DNA of 64,000 bases from NCBI RefSeq assembly GCF_006738645.1, contig NZ_AP019700.1, forward strand, positions 880,001-944,000. The letters run 5' to 3'. Every line of letters begins with the position of its first letter. Position 1 is the first letter of the stretch. A model generated the notes under the pieces. The model did not search any database. It was not told the DNA's origin and was given only the letters and a program-made list of their open reading frames with translations. Positions 1,028-10,440 of the stretch are shown piece after piece. The position numbers were made by a program, and so were the translations under genes. This DNA comes from Stella humosa. GTDB lineage: Bacteria > Pseudomonadota > Alphaproteobacteria > ATCC43930 > Allostellaceae.

Positions 1028-2815
1028 ATGAGCCAACAACTGAATTCCGTGCGGGCTCTCCTGCGCGCCTGCCGACCGGAGTTGGTGACGGTCGGCATCA
1101 TCACTTTCTTCATCAATATGTTGATGCTGACGCTGCCGCTCTACACGCTGCAGATGTTCTCGCGCGTGTTTGCCAGCGGCAGCATGTCCACCCTGGTCCT
1201 GCTCACCGTCATCGCCGTGTTCGCGATGATCGTGATGGGCATCCTCTATTTCGTCCGCTCTCGCGTCACCAACGAGATGAGCAACAAGATCGACGCGATG
1301 CTGGGCGAGAACCTGCTTCGCCTGTCGATCAAGAACGGCCTGCTGAACAACACCTCGCGCGATGCCCAGGGGCTGCGCGATCTGGCTCAGGTGCGCAACT
1401 TCCTGGCCGGCGGCGAACTGCCCAACCTGTTCGATACGCCCTGGGTCCCGATGTACCTCTTCATCATCTGGATCTTCGACCCGCTGCTGGGCTACGTCGC
1501 CATCGCCGGCGCCATCATCATGATCAGCTTCGCGATCGCCAACGAGGTGCTCTCCCGCCGTCCCTTGCGCATCTACAACACCGCCAGCGTGCTCGCCACG
1601 CAGGAGGCGGAATCGATGGTGAAGAACGCCGAAGCCATCGAATCCATGGGCATGATGAACGGCGTCGTGCGCCAGTGGCGCAAGATGCAGAGCGTCGTGC
1701 TCTCCTCCAACAGCCGTTCGAACAAGGTCAGCAGCTTCATCGGCACGACGTCGCGCACGGTCCGCCTGATGGTGCAGATCGCCGTGACCGCCGTCGGCGC
1801 CTACCAGGTCGTCAATCACTCCATCAGCCCCGGCGCGTTCGTTGTCGCCAACATCCTGATGGCCCGCGCGCTGGCCCCGGTCGACGCCGCCATCGGCACC
1901 TGGCGCAGCGTCGTCGCCTTCATGTCGGCCGCCCGCCGGCTGGACGCGATGATGCAGGACCTGCCGCGCATGCAGACCTCGTCGATGTCGCTGCCCGCAC
2001 CCAAGGGGCGGATCGCGGTCGATCGCGTGGTGTTCCGCCATCGCGTCGGCGGCGGCCTGGCCCCGGCCATCCTGAAGGGCGTCAGCTTCGCCATCGAGCC
2101 GGGCGAGGCCCTTGGCATCGTTGGGCCCAGCGGATCGGGCAAGTCCACCCTGGTCAAATGCATCGTCGGCGTCTGGCGGCCGTTCAGCGGTACCGTCCGG
2201 CTCGACGGGGCCGACGTCGCCCAGTGGGATTCCGAGGATCTCGGCCAGTATGTCGGCTACCTGCCGCAGGACGTGGACCTCTTCAACGCCTCGATCCGCG
2301 ACAACATCTCGCGCTTCCAGGAGGCCGATCCCAAGGACATCGTCGAGGCGGCCCAACTGGCCGGCGTCCATGACCTGATCCTGCGCATGCCCAACGGCTA
2401 CGAGACCAAGATCGGCACCAGCAACTACATCCTGTCGGGCGGCCAGCGGCAGCGCATCGGCCTGGCCCGGGCGCTGTTCGGCAGCCCCAAGATGCTGGTG
2501 CTGGACGAGCCCAACGCCAATCTCGACACCGAGGGCGAGGCGGCGCTGCGCCAGGCCTTGACCCACTGCAAGCAAAAGGGAGTGACGGTCATCGTCATCG
2601 CGCACCGCCCCAGCATCCTGTCCAACGTCGACAAGATGCTCTTCATGCGCGACGGTCAGGTCGAGCTGTTCGGCCCGCCCGCCGAGGTCATGGCCCGCCT
2701 GTCGCCGCCCGGCGGCGGCGCGGCGCGGCCCCGCGTGGTGTCCGCCCAGGGTGCCGGCGTCCCGGCCGAGCGGCGCGCCAACCCCGCCGCCGGCGGCGAG
2801 GTGGTGACGCCATGA
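1028..2815 (+). CDS. Type I secretion system permease/ATPase (PrtD-like ABC transporter)
   Basis: 595-residue half transporter: an N-terminal membrane domain with hydrophobic segments near residues 20-45 and 52-75 and more between 130 and 300, then an ATPase domain. Walker A GPSGSGKST is at 366-374, the signature LSGGQ at 469-473, Walker B MLVLDE at 489-494 and the H-loop histidine at 526. There is no N-terminal C39 peptidase, so the substrate should carry an uncleaved C-terminal signal, as in PrtD/HlyB-type export. The Pro/Gly/Ala-rich tail after about 560 looks like low-complexity extension. Its ATGA end overlaps the membrane-fusion gene. A possible -10 (TATAGT, 981-986) lies upstream without a convincing -35. 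Confidence 0.93.
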   Translation: MSQQLNSVRALLRACRPELVTVGIITFFINMLMLTLPLYTLQMFSRVFASGSMSTLVLLTVIAVFAMIVMGILYFVRSRVTNEMSNKIDAMLGENLLRLSIKNGLLNNTSRDAQGLRDLAQVRNFLAGGELPNLFDTPWVPMYLFIIWIFDPLLGYVAIAGAIIMISFAIANEVLSRRPLRIYNTASVLATQEAESMVKNAEAIESMGMMNGVVRQWRKMQSVVLSSNSRSNKVSSFIGTTSRTVRLMVQIAVTAVGAYQVVNHSISPGAFVVANILMARALAPVDAAIGTWRSVVAFMSAARRLDAMMQDLPRMQTSSMSLPAPKGRIAVDRVVFRHRVGGGLAPAILKGVSFAIEPGEALGIVGPSGSGKSTLVKCIVGVWRPFSGTVRLDGADVAQWDSEDLGQYVGYLPQDVDLFNASIRDNISRFQEADPKDIVEAAQLAGVHDLILRMPNGYETKIGTSNYILSGGQRQRIGLARALFGSPKMLVLDEPNANLDTEGEAALRQALTHCKQKGVTVIVIAHRPSILSNVDKMLFMRDGQVELFGPPAEVMARLSPPGGGAARPRVVSAQGAGVPAERRANPAAGGEVVTP

Positions 2816-4236
2816 GCGACGTCACCTCGATCAACCACCTGCCCGCCAACAAGAAGGGCGACACGACCCTCGCCGAAGCGATGATGGTCGACGGCGCGGT
2901 GGCGCCGGAGGAAGAGGCCAATCTCTACAACATCGATGCGATCCGCCGCTCGATCCGGCGCTGGACCATCGTCGGCATCGTCACCATCGTCACCTTCTTC
3001 GGCGGCTTCGTCGGCTGGGCCGCCGTGGCCGACCTCGACAGCGCGTCGGTCGCCCCGGGCACCGTCGGCGTCTTCCTCAACCGCCAGGCCGTCCAGCATC
3101 TCGAGGGCGGCATCGTCCGCGAGATCAAGGCGCGCGACGGCGACCAGGTGAAGGCGGGCGATGTCGTCATCGAGCTCGACGACACCCAGGCGCGCGCCAA
3201 CCTGCAGATCAACCAGAAGCGCTATACCGGCCTGATCGCGACCGAGGCCCGGCTGCTGGCCGAGCGCGACCTGCGCGAGCGGATCGACTATCCCCAGGCG
3301 CTGGTGAAGGCGGCCGAGACCGACTCCGAGACCAAGGACATCCTGCTGTCGCAGACCAACGTCTTCGAGGCCCGGCGGGCGTCGATGAAGGGGCAGGAGG
3401 GCATCCTGCGCCAGCGCATGGTGCAGTCGCGCGAGCAGATCGGCGGCTTCGAGGCCCAGCAGCGGGCGCGGGCCGACCAGATCCGCCTGATCAACGAGGA
3501 AGTGGCGACCGTCCAGCGCCTGCTGGAAACCGGCAACGCCCTGAAGCCGCGCCTGCTGGCGCTGCAGCGGGCCAAGGCCGAACTGGAAGGGCAGCGCGGC
3601 GACCTCGTCGCCAACATCGCCCGCGTGAAGCAGGTGATCGGCGAATCCGAGCTGCAGATCCTCAACATCAACACCGAGATGCAGCGCACGGTCACGCAGG
3701 AGCTGCGCGACACCCAGACCCAGATGCTGGACACGGCCGAACGCATCCGCGTCGCCCAGGACGTGCTGCGGCGGACCGCCGTGATTGCCCCCGTCGACGG
3801 CGAGGTCGTGAACCTGAAGTACTTCGCGGTCGGTGCCGTCGTGCGCCCGGGCGATACCATCATGGAGGTGGTGCCCAGCAACGACGTGCGCATCATCGAC
3901 GTGAAGGTGAACCCCAACGACATCGACACGGTGCGCGTGGGGGCGACTGCCCGGGTGCGTCTCACCGCCTTCAACCAGCGCGTGACGCCGCAGATCGACG
4001 GCAAGGTCATCCAGGTCTCGGCCGACGCCATCGTCGATCCGCAGAGCGGCATCCCGACCTACCATGCCCGCATCGCCGTCCCGATGGAGGCCCTGCGCGC
4101 GGCCGACCTCGACCCGAGCCAGCTCCTGCCCGGCATGCCGGCGACGGCGATGATCTGGACCGGTCAGCGGACCGCGCTCGAATACTTCCTCCAGCCCTTC
4201 ATGACGGCCTTCCGCACCGCCTTCCGCGAGGACTGA
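2812..4236 (+). CDS. HlyD-family type I secretion membrane fusion protein
   Basis: 474 residues: a cytoplasmic N-terminus of about 50, one transmembrane helix (around WTIVGIVTIVTFFGGFVGW), a lipoyl-like half motif (VQHLEGGIVREI), a long Gln/Glu/Arg-rich alpha-helical hairpin at about 130-310, the second lipoyl half (VIAPVDGEVVNL) and a beta-barrel C-terminal domain. Such proteins bridge the inner-membrane ABC transporter to a TolC-type outer-membrane channel. The start overlaps the ABC gene stop by 4 bases (ATGA), implying coupled translation. No TolC homologue or RTX substrate is seen in the window, so these must be supplied elsewhere. A strong terminator follows. Confidence 0.93.
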   Translation: MSDVTSINHLPANKKGDTTLAEAMMVDGAVAPEEEANLYNIDAIRRSIRRWTIVGIVTIVTFFGGFVGWAAVADLDSASVAPGTVGVFLNRQAVQHLEGGIVREIKARDGDQVKAGDVVIELDDTQARANLQINQKRYTGLIATEARLLAERDLRERIDYPQALVKAAETDSETKDILLSQTNVFEARRASMKGQEGILRQRMVQSREQIGGFEAQQRARADQIRLINEEVATVQRLLETGNALKPRLLALQRAKAELEGQRGDLVANIARVKQVIGESELQILNINTEMQRTVTQELRDTQTQMLDTAERIRVAQDVLRRTAVIAPVDGEVVNLKYFAVGAVVRPGDTIMEVVPSNDVRIIDVKVNPNDIDTVRVGATARVRLTAFNQRVTPQIDGKVIQVSADAIVDPQSGIPTYHARIAVPMEALRAADLDPSQLLPGMPATAMIWTGQRTALEYFLQPFMTAFRTAFRED

Positions 4237-4303: not shown

Positions 4304-5551
4304 TCAGAGCGGCAGCGGCGGCTTCTCCCCCGGGGGGATGCGGCCAGCGGCCAGGTCCTTCAGGAGCGCTATCTGGCGCGCCATGCAGTGCTTGAGCTGG
4401 TAGGAATCGAGCACCGTCTGGCGGGCGTTGCGGCGGATGCGGGCCATGCCGTCGGGATGGTCCAGCACCTCCTCGACCCGGTCGGCGATGTCGGCATCGT
4501 CGAAGAAATCCGCCAGCAGGCCGTTCTCGCGGTCGACCAGCACCTCCTGCACCGGCGGGGTGCGCGAGCCGACGATCACGCAGCCGGTCGACATCGCCTC
4601 CAGGAACGACCAGGACAGCACGAACGGGTAGGTCAGGTAGACGTGGCAGCTCGAGACCTGCAACACCTTGAGGAAGGTGGGGTAGGGGACCTGACCCAGG
4701 AAGTGCACGCGGTCCGGGTCGATCTTGACCTGCTTCAGCAGTTCCTCGCGGTAGGTCTTCTTGTCGGGCAGCGGCGAGCCGTAGCTGACGCCGTCGCCGC
4801 CGACGACGACGAACTGTGCGTTCGGCCGGCTTTTGCACAGCCGCTCCAGCACCTTCATGTAGACCGGGAAGCCGCGATAGGGCTCCAGGTTGCGCGAGAC
4901 GTAGGTGACGATCTCCTCGCCCTTGCGCAGCACCTTGCCGTTGGGGAGCTTCAGCTCCGCCCCGTCGATGGGCGCGCAGACATCGGCGTTGATGCCGTCA
5001 TGGATGACCGAGATCTTCGAGCGCAGCTCGGGCGGGTTCTGCTGCCACTGCCAGCGCGTGGGCGAGATCGCCCAGTCGCAGGAGATCAGGCTCAGCAGGT
5101 TGTTGGCGTTCTTGGCGCGGATGCGGCAGACGCGGTCCAGGTCCATCTTCTGGCCGGGCTCGAAATGGACGTCCGAGCCGAAGGCGTTGTAGTAGAATTC
5201 GGTGTAGTTCAGCAGCTTGCTGTCGGGGAACACGTCCTTGATGAACATGCCCTCGCCCCAGCCGGGATGGCAGAAGATGACGTCCGGCGTGAACCCCTTG
5301 GCCTTCACCGCGACGGCGGCGCGCGCCACGGCCTGGCCGTACAGCACCTGCTCCTCGAACGGCTTCACGTAGGGATGGATCTTGTCGCTGACGGCGCGCG
5401 CCAGCTTGTATTCCGCCTTGGTGACGCCGGCCAGGTTGGGTTTCCCCTCCCGGGTGATGTACCAGACCTCGTTCTGCTGCTCGGCGGCCAGGCGCGGTGC
5501 GAGATACTTGAACTGGGCCGGACAATTCTGATGGATGAACAGGATGCGCAT
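4304..5551 (-). CDS. Glycosyltransferase family 4 (GT-B fold)
   Basis: 415-residue protein starting MRILFIHQNCPAQ, a typical first beta strand of a GT-B Rossmann domain. The C-terminal half has the donor-binding pattern: VSRNLEPYRGF, a GDG loop, and the E-x7-E type segment SFLEAMSTGCVIVGS followed by VDRENGLL. This predicts a retaining transferase that uses a nucleotide sugar. The acceptor is not deducible. It is transcribed leftward, alone, toward the bidirectional terminator, opposite to the flanking secretion genes and the GT-A-like gene. The 110-base upstream gap to the divergent gene contains an 8-base inverted repeat. Confidence 0.87.
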   Translation of the reverse strand: MRILFIHQNCPAQFKYLAPRLAAEQQNEVWYITREGKPNLAGVTKAEYKLARAVSDKIHPYVKPFEEQVLYGQAVARAAVAVKAKGFTPDVIFCHPGWGEGMFIKDVFPDSKLLNYTEFYYNAFGSDVHFEPGQKMDLDRVCRIRAKNANNLLSLISCDWAISPTRWQWQQNPPELRSKISVIHDGINADVCAPIDGAELKLPNGKVLRKGEEIVTYVSRNLEPYRGFPVYMKVLERLCKSRPNAQFVVVGGDGVSYGSPLPDKKTYREELLKQVKIDPDRVHFLGQVPYPTFLKVLQVSSCHVYLTYPFVLSWSFLEAMSTGCVIVGSRTPPVQEVLVDRENGLLADFFDDADIADRVEEVLDHPDGMARIRRNARQTVLDSYQLKHCMARQIALLKDLAAGRIPPGEKPPLPL

Positions 5552-5662: not shown

Positions 5663-6568
5663 ATGGCCGTGAAGATCCGTTTTACGCCATTTCCCCCGGC
5701 ACCACGGCGCCGACGGGTTCTATTCACGATTGCGCATTACTACGCGGCGTCCCGGGACGGCAAGTACGGTTCGACGCGGGCATCGGCGCGCGATGCCCGG
5801 CGCGACGCCCTGGCGCGGACGATCTCGTGCCTGCATGACGCGGTGGTGCAGCCGCAATGCCTGGTGCACGGGCCGATCCACGGCTTCCTGCCGGCCAACG
5901 ATGCCGACGCGACCGAGATCGAGGTCGTCGTCTGCACCACGGGCGACGACCACCTGGTGGACGAACTCGACCTTCCGCCCGGCACCTTCCGCCACCACCG
6001 CACCCAGGCCGAGCCCAAGCTGCTGGGTTATGAATGCCATGCCGTCCTGCGCGACGCGGCCGCCGGCTATGACCGCGTCTGCTACCTTGAGGACGACATC
6101 GCCATCGAGGACAGCAGCTTCTTCGCCAAGCTCGACTGGTTCCACGGCTGGGCCGGGGCCGACAGCGTGCTGCAGCCCAACCGCTTCGAGACGAGCGAGC
6201 GCGGCCCGGTGCGCCGGCTCTATATCGACGGCGAGCCGGCGATGCCGGCCAAGCTCGGCTACGTGCCGGACCGCTCCGACCGCCCCTGGATCTCGGCCGA
6301 CGGGCTGGGCCAGCCGCTATGGTTCGGCCGGGTCGCCAATGCCCATTCCGGCTGCTTCTTCCTGACCCGCGAGCAGATGGCGCACTGGGCAGCCCAGCCC
6401 GATTTCCTGTCGCGCGAGTCGGTCTTCGTCGGGCCACTGGAAAGTGCCGCCACGCTTGGCCTGCTGCGGCATTTCCGGGTCTACAAGCCGGCCCGCGGCA
6501 ATGCCGCCTTCCTGGAGGTGCGGCACCTGCACCGGCGCTATCTCGACACCATGCTGGAGTTCGTGTGA
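5663..6568 (+). CDS. Putative GT-A-type glycosyltransferase, specificity unknown
   Basis: An upstream ATG at 5618 is in frame, but the one at 5663 follows a GGGAG ribosome-binding sequence at a suitable distance and opens the first credible strand, so I use it (301 residues). Features seen are RRRVLFTIAHYY near the N-terminus, an acidic motif YLEDDIAIED about 45% in (like a metal-binding DxD), and NAHSGCFFLTREQM followed by a conserved-looking acidic/aromatic stretch. This layout resembles GT-A transferases, but I do not recognise a named family. The next gene begins 4 bases after its stop, suggesting co-expression with a TPR/glycosyltransferase protein. Confidence 0.6.
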   Translation: MAVKIRFTPFPPAPRRRRVLFTIAHYYAASRDGKYGSTRASARDARRDALARTISCLHDAVVQPQCLVHGPIHGFLPANDADATEIEVVVCTTGDDHLVDELDLPPGTFRHHRTQAEPKLLGYECHAVLRDAAAGYDRVCYLEDDIAIEDSSFFAKLDWFHGWAGADSVLQPNRFETSERGPVRRLYIDGEPAMPAKLGYVPDRSDRPWISADGLGQPLWFGRVANAHSGCFFLTREQMAHWAAQPDFLSRESVFVGPLESAATLGLLRHFRVYKPARGNAAFLEVRHLHRRYLDTMLEFV

Positions 6569-6572
6569 CGGC

Positions 6573-7721
6573 ATGGATCCATCGGGCGATGCGCCGGTCG
6601 ACCTGAAGCTGGCGGCGCGCGTGGCCTTCCGCGAGGGCCGGTTCACCGATGCGCTGGCGCTGTTCGAGCGCCTGGCCGCGGCAGCGCCGGACCTGTGGTC
6701 GGCCCCCTACAATACCGGGTTGCTGCTGTCGCATCTGGGCCGGCCGGCCGAGGCGGAGGTCGCCCTGCGCCGGGCAATCGCGCTGGCGCCCGAGCGGGGT
6801 GAACTGCGCAACGATCTGGCGCTGGCCCTCCTGGCCCAGGGCCGCGAGGACGAGGGGTGGGAGGCTTATCTGTGGCGCCGCCAGGCCCCGCGCGCGCCGG
6901 AGGACCGGCCGCGCGAACCCTTGCCGGCCGATCTCGCCGGGGCCGGGATCCTGCTGCTGAACGAGCAGGGGCTGGGCGACAGCCTGTTCTTCCTGCGCTA
7001 CGCGGCTGAGTTGTCGCGGCGCGGTGCCCGCCTCTTCCACGAGCCCTTCGCCAAGCTGGCCGGCATCCTGTCGGGCGTGCCGTGGCTGGAGCCGGTGCCG
7101 CGGCCGGCGCCGGACTGGCGGGTGCCGCTGGGCGACCTGCCCTATCTGACGGGCCTGTGCCATCCCCCGGCCTTGCGGCTGTCCCCCGCGCCCGCCCGCC
7201 AGGCGGCCGTCGCGCTGCGATTGGCCCGGGCCGGGCCGCCGCCCTATCTGGGCGTCACCTGGCATGCCGGCGTCCGGGCGCCGGGCAACCTGATCAAGGA
7301 CGCGTCGCCGGCCGCCCTGGGCGCGGCCCTGGCCGGTTGGCCGGGGACGCTGGTGCTCCTGCAACGGGTGCAGGAGCCGGGCACGGTGGCGGCTTTCGCC
7401 GCAGCCGCGGGGCGTGCGCCGGCCGACTTCTCGGACCTGCACGAGGCGCTGGACGACATGCTGTGCCTGCTCGACCGGCTCGACGCCCATGCCGCCGTCA
7501 GCAACACCAACGTCCATCTGCGCGCCGGGCTGGGGCGACCACAGCATGTCCTGGTGCCGTGGCCGGCGGAGTTCCGCTGGCCGGCCGCGCCGGACCGATC
7601 ACCGTGGTTCCCGGACTGCCGGCTCTATCGCCAGCGGCCCGACGGCGACTGGGGGCCTGCCCTGGCCGACCTGGCGGCCGACCTGGGCAGCCGGAGCGCC
7701 CTCAGCCCGAGCGGCGCATGA
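6573..7721 (+). CDS. TPR-repeat protein with GT9-like glycosyltransferase domain
   Basis: Longer in-frame starts exist inside the preceding gene. ATG 6573, four bases after that gene's stop, gives 382 residues and is preferred. Residues about 10-110 form TPR-like helices with the usual Ala/Leu/Tyr/Pro spacing (ALALFERLAAAAPD, AEVALRRAIALAPE). From about 120 comes LLLNEQGLGDSLFFLRYA, the family-typical start of the transferase-like domain, and the C-terminus carries SNTNVHLRAGLGRP and a closing YRQRPDGDW. It parallels the partial protein at 2-943, so the locus carries two paralogues. Its last 20 bases overlap the convergent methyltransferase gene. Confidence 0.75.
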   Translation: MDPSGDAPVDLKLAARVAFREGRFTDALALFERLAAAAPDLWSAPYNTGLLLSHLGRPAEAEVALRRAIALAPERGELRNDLALALLAQGREDEGWEAYLWRRQAPRAPEDRPREPLPADLAGAGILLLNEQGLGDSLFFLRYAAELSRRGARLFHEPFAKLAGILSGVPWLEPVPRPAPDWRVPLGDLPYLTGLCHPPALRLSPAPARQAAVALRLARAGPPPYLGVTWHAGVRAPGNLIKDASPAALGAALAGWPGTLVLLQRVQEPGTVAAFAAAAGRAPADFSDLHEALDDMLCLLDRLDAHAAVSNTNVHLRAGLGRPQHVLVPWPAEFRWPAAPDRSPWFPDCRLYRQRPDGDWGPALADLAADLGSRSALSPSGA

Positions 7722-8982
7722 ACCAGGGGCGGCGCTGCAGGGCGCGGACGCGCTCGATCTCCTCGCGTGTGCGCCCCATCTCGCTGGTGGTGGTGTTGAG
7801 CGCGGTCCAGATGCCCTTCAGCCAGGCATTCATCGATTCCTGCAGGCTTTCCGAATAGGCGGCCAGCCGCTCGGTCTCGCGCGACAGGCGGCCCAGCTCG
7901 GGCACCGACTCGTCGAGCCGCCGCTCCAGCGCCTGCATCCGGCTCTCGACGGCCGCCAGCCCGCCGGCCACGCCGTTCAGCCGTTCCTCGACCGTGTCGA
8001 AGCGCTGGTCGACGGCATCGAGCCGGATGCGCATGGTGTCGAGGTCGCGGCTGGTCGTGTCGAAGTATTTCGGCGTCGTCGCCGGATTGTCGACATGGTC
8101 CTGGCCGACCCAGCTCGCCAGCGGCCGGCGCGTCTCGACCGGCGGCAGGAAGCGATCCTCGAAGATGCCCGGAAGCGGCACCGCGCGCAGCGGTCGCGCC
8201 TCGCCCTTGCGCGCGATGAAGGTCTCGCGGTCGCCATAGCTGAGGATGGCGGGGTAGAGGCATTCGGTGACCGTCGCAAAGCCCGACCGGGCCAGCGCGT
8301 TCACCAGCGACGGCTTGCTGAGCCAGAACGAATAGGCGTTGTCGAGCGAGGCCCATTCCCGCTTTTCCCGCACCGTCAGGTCGGCGCCGTCCTCATGCTC
8401 GCGCCGGCTGACGCCGAAATACTCCTGGCCCCGGTACTCGAACCGCTCGGTCACGGTCTGGGCATAGTGGGTTTCGACGATCGCCAAGTCGTCGCACATG
8501 CCGGCCATGTTCTCGAACACCCGGAACACGTCGCCGGCATCGAGATGGTAGACGAGGCCGCAATTGAGGATGACGTCGAAGCGGCCGTAAAGGGCCTCGG
8601 TCGCCTCGCGGGCGTCGCCCTGCTCGAAGCGCACGCGCGACAGTCCCAGCGCCTCGGCGGCGAAGCGGGCGCGGGCCAGCGGTGCTGCCCGTCCCTCGAC
8701 CCCCACCACCTCGGCGCCGTGAAGGCCGAACTCAATGGCATAGAGCCCCTCGCTGCAACCGAGGTCGAGGATGCGAAGCCGGTCGAGCGGCTTGCGGGCG
8801 ATGCTGCCGACCACGTCCAGCAGGTGCTTGGCCGTGTTCTCGGCACCCACCACGCGGGCGTCGATGGTGTAGACGCCATGGCCCAGATGGATGTTGTGGC
8901 CGACCCAGGCGCCATGCTCGGCGGCGACGGCATCGCGGCGGCGGATCAGTTCGTCTCGGGACAGGCTCGGCTGGGGTGTCAT
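7702..8982 (-). CDS. Class I SAM-dependent methyltransferase with C-terminal coiled coil
   Basis: 426 residues. The SAM-binding motif I is ILDLGCSEG (about 71-79), followed by VVGVEGR and ILNCGLVYHLDAGD, all typical of class I methyltransferases. From about residue 312 to the end the sequence becomes heptad-like and charged (RIRLDAVDQRFDTVEERL, MQALERRLDE, EEIERVRALQ), predicting a coiled coil of over 100 residues. Its start overlaps the upstream oxygenase stop by ATGA, so the two are translationally coupled. The layout recalls polymer-modifying enzymes in which a coiled coil acts as a spacer or membrane anchor, but no kinase domain is visible. Its 3' end overlaps the convergent TPR gene by 20 bases. 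Confidence 0.82.
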   Translation of the reverse strand: MTPQPSLSRDELIRRRDAVAAEHGAWVGHNIHLGHGVYTIDARVVGAENTAKHLLDVVGSIARKPLDRLRILDLGCSEGLYAIEFGLHGAEVVGVEGRAAPLARARFAAEALGLSRVRFEQGDAREATEALYGRFDVILNCGLVYHLDAGDVFRVFENMAGMCDDLAIVETHYAQTVTERFEYRGQEYFGVSRREHEDGADLTVREKREWASLDNAYSFWLSKPSLVNALARSGFATVTECLYPAILSYGDRETFIARKGEARPLRAVPLPGIFEDRFLPPVETRRPLASWVGQDHVDNPATTPKYFDTTSRDLDTMRIRLDAVDQRFDTVEERLNGVAGGLAAVESRMQALERRLDESVPELGRLSRETERLAAYSESLQESMNAWLKGIWTALNTTTSEMGRTREEIERVRALQRRPWFMRRSG

Positions 8983-9653
8983 GCGCGCTGGTCTCCCGGT
9001 CGGGGCTGGGCGCCGACGGCATAGTCGGTGATGGCGACGTTGGCGGCGATGGAGATGCGCTCGCCGGCCGCGAAGAAGGGATGGACCGAATGTTCCAGCC
9101 AGGCCGGAAACAGCACCATCAGCCCGGCCTCGGCGGGCAGCGTCATGGCCGCGCCGAAGGAAAAGCCGGGGGCGGCGGCAAAGGGGGCGGCCGGCCGCGG
9201 GTCGCGCAGTTCCAGCCGGCCGGACAGCGGCCGCGCCGGGTCGGGCGCCGGCGCGGTGACGTAGTAGACCACCGCCCAGTGGTTGCCCGGGTGGGTGTGG
9301 ACCTCGTTGTAGTGGCCGGCCCGGCTGACATTGGCCCAGGCCTGTGCGGTGAAGGACAGGCGGAACTCCTCCACCCCCGCGCGCCGCGCCGGCAGGCGCT
9401 GGGCCGCGCGCACGGCGCGCTCCAGCCAGCCGCGATAGGCTGCCACCTCCGGCCCGCCCCAGTTCAGCAGGTCGGGCCGCGATTGCCAGCCGCCGGCATT
9501 GCTGCGGGCGACGCCGGGCTCGCGCCCGGCCCGCTCCAGGATCTGGCGGGCCAGCCCGGCATTGACGTCCGCCGCACCTTCCGGCCGCAGCATGATGACC
9601 GGCGTGCCGAAGAAAAGAGCGGCTTCCTGGTCGAGGGCGATATCGATCGTCAT
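8979..9653 (-). CDS. Putative 2OG-Fe(II) oxygenase (TIGR02466-like)
   Basis: I start at ATG 9653 (224 residues, MTIDIALDQE); the longer frame to 9761 adds only low-complexity basic sequence. Metal-ligand candidates are H119 and H121 in NEVHTHPGNHW, then H188/H191 in FPAWLEHSVHPF, with R199 in GERISIAANV as the likely 2-oxoglutarate-binding arginine. The beta-strand run WAVVYYV follows the first pair, as in small bacterial members of this family. The substrate is unknown. It is coupled by ATGA overlap to the methyltransferase gene, so both may modify the same surface sugar or lipid. Confidence 0.72.
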   Translation of the reverse strand: MTIDIALDQEAALFFGTPVIMLRPEGAADVNAGLARQILERAGREPGVARSNAGGWQSRPDLLNWGGPEVAAYRGWLERAVRAAQRLPARRAGVEEFRLSFTAQAWANVSRAGHYNEVHTHPGNHWAVVYYVTAPAPDPARPLSGRLELRDPRPAAPFAAAPGFSFGAAMTLPAEAGLMVLFPAWLEHSVHPFFAAGERISIAANVAITDYAVGAQPRPGDQRA

Positions 9654-9729: not shown

Positions 9730-10440
9730 TCAACGCGGCCGCTCGGGCCGGCCGATCGCAAACAGGGCCACGGCGGCGGCGTTCGACACGTTGAGGCTGC
9801 CCACCGGCCCGCCGGTGGGCAGGCGGACGAGGCGATCGCAACGCTCGCGGGTCAGGCGGCGCAGGCCCTCGCCCTCGGCCCCGAGCGCAATCGCCACGCG
9901 CTCGGCCGGCCGGCCGGCGACCAGTTCGTCGGGGCCCTCCTCGGCCAGGCCCAGGCAGACGAAGCCCGCCTCCTGCAACTCGACGATCGTGCGCGCGAGA
10001 TTGACCACGCGCACCAGCGGCACCACCTCCACTGCCCCGGACGCGGCCTTGGCCAGGGTGCCGGTGATGGGCGGGGCGTGGCGGTCGGGCAGGATGACGG
10101 CGGCCGCCCCGAAGGCGGCGGCCGAGCGCAGGATGGCACCGATATTGTGCGGGTCGGTCACCTGGTCGAGCAGGACCAGGGTGGCCGGCTGGCCGGCACC
10201 CAGGCTGTCCAGCAGGTCGCCCAGGTCGGGTGGCGCCAGCGGCTCGACCGCCAGGGCCACGCCCTGATGGACGCTGCCGGCCGGCAGCAGCCGGTCGAGT
10301 GCTGCCCGCTCGACCGTCTCGACCGGGGGGCGGCGGTGATCGGGCATCGCCGCCAACACCGGCGCCAGGGCGCCACCCGAATCGGCGCCGACCAGCAGTC
10401 GCCGGCAGGTCCGGGCCGGGTTGGCCAGGGCGGCGGCCAC
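9730..10440 (-). CDS. rlmB: 23S rRNA 2'-O-methyltransferase RlmB-like (TrmH/SpoU family), N-terminus problematic
   Basis: SPOUT methyltransferase with all three family motifs: LDQVTDPHNIGAILRSAAAF, IALGAEGEGLRRLT and LPTGGPVGSLNVSNAAAVAL. The only standard start in frame is the GTG at 10440, giving 236 residues. The same frame stays open upstream to a TGA at 10579-10581 and encodes AGAWLWGHHAVAAALANP, the conserved first strand of the substrate-binding domain, yet holds no ATG, GTG or TTG. An ATG at 10582 (MKPRRP, a typical basic RlmB N-terminus) is in another frame, so a single indel in the GC-rich run would join them. The gene is therefore frameshifted, mis-sequenced or shortened. Family role: methylation of G2251 of 23S rRNA. 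Confidence 0.8.
   Translation of the reverse strand: MAAALANPARTCRRLLVGADSGGALAPVLAAMPDHRRPPVETVERAALDRLLPAGSVHQGVALAVEPLAPPDLGDLLDSLGAGQPATLVLLDQVTDPHNIGAILRSAAAFGAAAVILPDRHAPPITGTLAKAASGAVEVVPLVRVVNLARTIVELQEAGFVCLGLAEEGPDELVAGRPAERVAIALGAEGEGLRRLTRERCDRLVRLPTGGPVGSLNVSNAAAVALFAIGRPERPR

Follow-up and report, generated by a model that had tools for sequence, protein, structure and literature searches.

Why does a methyltransferase of Stella humosa, a star-shaped soil bacterium, continue into a long coiled-coil tail, and does that tail measure anything? In Escherichia coli, WbdD measures surface sugar chains, and coiled-coil terminators explain how some bacteria fix the length of their surface sugars; the initial annotation of this locus had proposed a similar terminating or length-measuring role for the Stella protein, coupled to an adjacent oxygenase. 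The locus lies in a window of 64,000 nucleotides (genome positions 880001–944000; coordinates below are those of the window) of the S. humosa ATCC 43930 genome (AP019700), a single contig of 5,832,650 bases (PMC6687932), and was compared among four genomes of the Stella group, namely the complete genomes of S. humosa, S. vacuolata and Stella sp. ATCC 35155 and the metagenome-assembled genome (MAG) SJ646. A literature search on WbdD coiled coils, S. humosa, the Stella S-layer, alphaproteobacterial terminators and S. vacuolata lipopolysaccharide found nothing on this gene and no account of a Stella surface layer or lipopolysaccharide; proteins of this general kind, in which a coiled coil carries an enzyme head and the gene lies near those for surface glycans, are already known.

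Both reading frames were present as initially annotated, that is, the methyltransferase of 426 amino acids (7702–8982, minus strand) and the 2OG-Fe(II) oxygenase of 224 amino acids (8979–9653, minus strand). Judged from its sequence, its Pfam matches and an alignment of the four orthologues, the former combines a class I methyltransferase domain with a stalk behind it and, further on, a conserved distal segment. Residues 71–162 match methyltransferase families (PF13649, E 5.8e-12), and residues 22–148 score 57 bits against the TIGR04290 profile, whose cut-off is 300, so that the protein falls outside that family. In a profile search of the PDB, the closest solved relative is EvdMO1 (5t38 and 6ec3; E 3.5e-20), and WbdD is a weaker match (E 9.7e-7). 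EvdMO1 is, according to the title of a paper, a fused methyltransferase-oxidase of everninomicin, and everninomicins are described in an abstract as octasaccharide antibiotics. Among relatives on viral contigs (IMG/VR), the two closest (L074 and L075), which have no stalk, adjoin genes for a GT2 enzyme and a UDP-sugar dehydrogenase, and two weaker ones are portions of large proteins; no sugar-nucleotide gene was seen among those neighbours of the Stella methyltransferase that were scanned, which were part of the whole. A hidden kinase was considered and rejected, since the catalytic region and the stalk are separated by approximately 50 residues, too few to hold one.

The stalk (residues 312–360; 7903–8049, minus strand) follows a single heptad register, and in every one of the four orthologues its fit is better than that of all 5000 shuffles, which bears out the initial statement that the methyltransferase runs into heptad-rich sequence from about residue 312. 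On our own scoring scheme, its best proline-free window of 49 residues (307–355) scores 0.829, the highest value among the 66 genes with such a window out of 115 called in 124 kb, and is followed by HlyD at 0.543. Seven heptads are clean (residues 314–356), with a core of LLFLLML at the a positions and MVVVVLS at the d positions in S. humosa that is mostly hydrophobic in the other orthologues, apart from a few weaker positions in the MAG. Behind the stalk, the distal segment (residues 361–426; 7705–7902, minus strand) starts at a proline, Pro361, invariant in the four orthologues, contains the invariant Trp387 and Trp392, and closes with the basic and aromatic RRPWFMRR. Its heptad fit over residues 361–412 is poorer, being reached by 49, 80, 9 and 3 of 5000 shuffles in the four orthologues and by 71 in a repeat for S. 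humosa. The initial description of a 100-residue coiled-coil tail is thus right for residues 314–356, but the tail is not uniform, given Pro361 and the weaker heptads beyond it. Structure prediction had been named as a check on whether the tail is globular; an AlphaFold2 model built from the four sequences gives a single helix over residues 312–416 at low confidence (mean pLDDT 46), and so leans only weakly towards a non-globular tail. The seven heptads would measure approximately 73 Å, and the whole helix would reach approximately 158 Å.

Pairwise identities among the four orthologues run to 78–90% in residues 20–260, 67–88% in the linker (261–311), 41–68% in residues 312–355 and 67–80% in residues 356–424, and the tail aligns without a gap up to residue 424 in these four sequences. 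According to the available part of PMC5082667, the hallmark of a spacer is a sequence that diverges while its length is kept. The Stella stalk appears to evolve as a spacer does, with a divergent sequence, a constant length and better-conserved flanks, in an alignment of four sequences in which the linker is gap-free too. The RhxxhE motif, in the definition that we assume for it, occurs in its exact form in all four orthologues, yet 8–11% of shuffles also carry it in two of them. An amphipathic moment scan, run on the S. humosa tail, gives a moderate moment near residues 380–405 and a strongly basic end, and three of 15 windows exceed what we take to be the lipid-binding threshold (with moment scale and formula likewise presumed), two of them mainly through charge. 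The distal segment was not found in a second protein of the S. humosa genome, where the sole other match had an E value of 0.059.

The tailed form is narrowly distributed. With a single protein as the query, it was found in all four genomes of the family and, at E 1e-15, in four of 43 genomes of the order, which are the identical Stella-group genomes. At the level of the class, five of 385 genomes gave matches at E 1e-20 (two Stella genomes and three with tailless proteins), and a profile query raised the count to 13, the eight extra ones being tailless as well. In the phylum, three of 398 genomes matched, namely S. humosa and two with reading frames of 285 and 275 amino acids, which have no comparable tail because no room is left after the matched part; for most genomes in the class and phylum searches, scoring was confined to the four best candidates. 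A search of genome contigs with short patterns returned three loci, all from the Stella group. Within the family, order, class and phylum searches, therefore, no genome outside the Stella group showed the tailed form.

The methyltransferase keeps constant company. In all four genomes it is accompanied by a PrtD-type ABC transporter of type I secretion (1028–2815, plus strand), its HlyD-family adaptor (2812–4236, plus strand), a GT4 glycosyltransferase (4304–5551, minus strand; PF12000 and PF00534), an unnamed gene referred to here as the 5666 gene (5666–6568, plus strand), the oxygenase, and upstream of the latter an RlmB-type 23S rRNA 2'-O-methyltransferase (9730–10440, minus strand). A gene for a tetratricopeptide repeat (TPR) protein (6573–7721, plus strand), whose 3' end overlaps that of the methyltransferase, is absent from that place in S. 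vacuolata; its C-terminal domain may be a glycosyltransferase, and the 60 PDB profile matches listed, of 189, cover the first third of the profile only, which is the TPR part. Upstream of the type I secretion genes stand four closely similar RTX-type paralogues of 622, 641, 622 and 632 amino acids (one at L020 8355–10223, the other three reaching as far as window position -1396; genome 868.4–878.6 kb), which share an N-terminus and vary in their later parts, with PF00353 confirmed on one of them. Proteins with the same N-terminus also occur in ATCC 35155 and S. vacuolata, and the MAG contig stops short of that place; in ATCC 35155, RTX-type copies stand both at the part of the locus with a Wzm/Wzt exporter (826 kb) and at the part with type I secretion and the methyltransferase (911 kb), approximately 84 kb apart.

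For the product of the 5666 gene, searches of Pfam, the PDB and PHROGs gave no match, and it may represent a new glycosyltransferase-type family. Its relatives, found in several alphaproteobacteria, occupy 13 places in ten of the 372 genomes searched, including two Stella genomes, with the best six candidates per genome scored in most genomes; two places are the Stella genes themselves, and nine of the other 11 were read (two in G093, one being a second S. humosa copy). Relatives of the TPR protein lie within approximately 8 kb at three of these nine places, one of which (L094) also has GT8, GT4, a methyltransferase and an RTX M10 protein nearby, and a fourth (L097) has a GT4 gene; at the remaining five, none of the other queried genes was near. 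These TPR, glycosyltransferase and RTX genes make the surroundings look in part like a module for glycans and exported proteins that is wider than Stella, to which the stalked methyltransferase would be a Stella addition. A literature search on RTX proteins with TPR glycosyltransferases and on the Caulobacter RsaA system found no paper.

The reading that we tentatively prefer, while granting it somewhat less than an even chance, is that of an oligomeric glycan methyltransferase on a spacer and docking stalk, and it is drawn from the heptads, the spacer-like evolution of the stalk, the kinship with EvdMO1, the sugar-linked viral relatives and a locus conserved in all four genomes. The stalk would make the methyltransferase an oligomer, perhaps a trimer, and would hold its catalytic heads approximately 70 to 160 Å from a partner or membrane that the distal segment would grip. 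The enzyme would O-methylate a sugar while a surface glycan is being assembled in the cytoplasm; most probably, the neighbouring glycosyltransferase and TPR genes would make this glycan for the RTX proteins, which the adjacent type I system would probably export. The oxygenase probably acts independently of the methyltransferase.

That last point departs from the initial annotation, in which the ATGA overlap coupled the two enzymes, and bears on an improbable alternative in which methyltransferase and oxygenase would modify the sugar of one substrate in sequence, as in the fused EvdMO1. The oxygenase itself is sound (PF13759, E 5.8e-19, 68.8 bits against a cut-off of 27; TIGR02466, 63.7 bits, barely above a cut-off of 62.5), and its histidine and arginine positions, which we take to be the 2OG core residues, align with those of 2rg4/3bvc. 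The overlap is likewise real in three strains (S. humosa, S. vacuolata and ATCC 35155), and no solved protein is nearer to the methyltransferase than EvdMO1; however, the PDB search with the oxygenase gave no match to EvdMO1. In the MAG, moreover, the oxygenase ends at 2095, a TPR reading frame on the opposite strand (2065–3774) separates it from the methyltransferase, which starts near 3877, and it is rlmB and the oxygenase that overlap instead. At E 1e-15, 42 of the 289 alphaproteobacterial genomes searched, including two Stella genomes, have relatives of the oxygenase (best ten candidates per genome scored in most genomes), and the neighbourhoods in ten of the other 40 contain no relative of this methyltransferase even at E 0.01, nor, at that threshold, any match to the other locus queries except two general ABC-transporter matches; at two of these places (L064 and L070), where the contig or the stretch stops, essentially one side was covered, and in the ten, families were scanned for part of the genes. 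L066 (8752–11115), from another alphaproteobacterium, speaks for a joint role: there the oxygenase relative has as its divergent neighbour a TPR protein whose Methyltransf_24/TylF-like domain is unrelated to the Stella methyltransferase, and a sulfotransferase gene is found a few kb away. This pair moved the balance slightly from the preferred reading towards the sequential one. In L073, a UbiE-like methyltransferase gene lies approximately 7 kb from the oxygenase relative. Since four-base overlaps are also common here (12 of 87 same-strand gene pairs in this region), the MAG insertion, the ten neighbourhoods and the overlap frequency together make gene packing the simplest reading of the ATGA; the coupling is weakly supported and was set aside as the main reading.

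The WbdD-like alternative, on which the methyl group would cap a polysaccharide exported by Wzm/Wzt and the stalk would set its chain length, is rather unlikely in our analysis, though it is a serious rival and the strongest of those considered. A Wzm/Wzt pair with a Wzt_C domain (E 1.8e-26) lies upstream in S. humosa, and each of the four genomes has a single Wzt_C match, which is approximately 24 kb from the methyltransferase in S. humosa and 25 kb in S. vacuolata; in ATCC 35155, however, the distance is 84 kb, and in the MAG the match is on another contig, so that the methyltransferase gene stands outside the Wzm/Wzt cluster and the arrangement is not that of a WbdD-type cluster. The protein has WbdD-type features, namely an N-terminal catalytic methyltransferase domain and a coiled coil behind it (residues 314–356, shorter than in WbdD) with the top heptad score in 124 kb, and its conserved distal segment, with a basic and aromatic end and three of 15 windows above the presumed lipid-binding threshold, would suit a terminator. 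PMC11231755 names the coiled coil as the marker that characterises this assembly strategy, and it describes methyl caps; methyl-only caps are reported there and in part of PMC3482155 for Klebsiella pneumoniae O5 and E. coli O8, which makes the terminator idea stronger than the author of the initial annotation could know. The missing kinase is no objection either, because the WbdD of E. coli O8 is a methyltransferase only, as stated in an excerpt of PMC3482155. The approximately 50 residues ahead of the stalk leave no room for the extra domain of 223 amino acids that the consulted section of PMC11231755 gives for the K. pneumoniae O7 type. Against a terminator, EvdMO1 is a closer relative than WbdD; it is the type I secretion and GT4 genes, not Wzm/Wzt, that have stayed beside the methyltransferase in each of the four genomes; and the clean stalk of approximately 73 Å compares with approximately 200 Å for the WbdD coiled coil (from a partial text of PMC5082667), though the whole helix would come nearer to it. 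In addition, the Wzm/Wzt cluster encodes a sulfotransferase-like protein of its own whose tail is weakly heptad; it is present in all three complete genomes (L020 5605–6984, minus strand, in S. humosa; L025 in S. vacuolata; L049 13234–14613 in ATCC 35155) and partly in the MAG. This protein, whose Pfam match (23.6 bits) falls short of the cut-off of 27, is a candidate terminator in its own right. More improbable still than the sequential pair is direct methylation of a protein, such as an RTX protein or a secretion component, by an enzyme whose stalk merely oligomerises; the linkage to type I secretion genes in all four genomes would favour it, but the closest solved and phage relatives are sugar-linked and no sign of a protein target was seen. 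Least probable, by a little, is a combination in which the stalked methyltransferase would serve as a WbdD-like length ruler or cap for a glycan built in the cytoplasm on the RTX proteins before type I export, so that a ruler of the polysaccharide kind would serve protein glycosylation in the coat of these star-shaped bacteria.

The oligomeric glycan methyltransferase on a spacer and docking stalk thus stays the preferred reading, and it offers a defined gene to test in Stella. If the stalk proved to measure something, the terminator principle would be widened to an enzyme whose nearest solved relative is not WbdD, at a type I secretion and RTX locus of an unusually shaped organism.

Compared with known systems, the Stella protein resembles WbdD of E. 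coli O9a/O8 and K. pneumoniae O3/O5 in its N-terminal methyltransferase, its C-terminal coiled coil and the presence of a Wzt_C exporter in the Stella genomes; it differs in being closer in sequence to EvdMO1, in its shorter clean stalk, in a gene position beyond the Wzm/Wzt cluster, and in conserved neighbours for type I secretion and GT4. EvdMO1 is a single fused polypeptide, whereas Stella has a separate PF13759 oxygenase with no match to it. TIGR04290 methyltransferases have residues 22–148 in common with the Stella enzyme, but its score is far under their cut-off, and similar tailless stand-alone proteins, putative members of that family, occur in other alphaproteobacteria. FlmG, the flagellin glycosyltransferase of Caulobacter, combines a TPR part with a C-terminal domain and serves several paralogous exported proteins, as the available extract of PMC7591256 describes. 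The Stella TPR protein, with its own C-terminal domain and several paralogous exported proteins at the locus, is similar in architecture rather than by sequence comparison, and differs in that its setting is RTX proteins and type I export instead of flagellin and its glycosyltransferase role is only putative.
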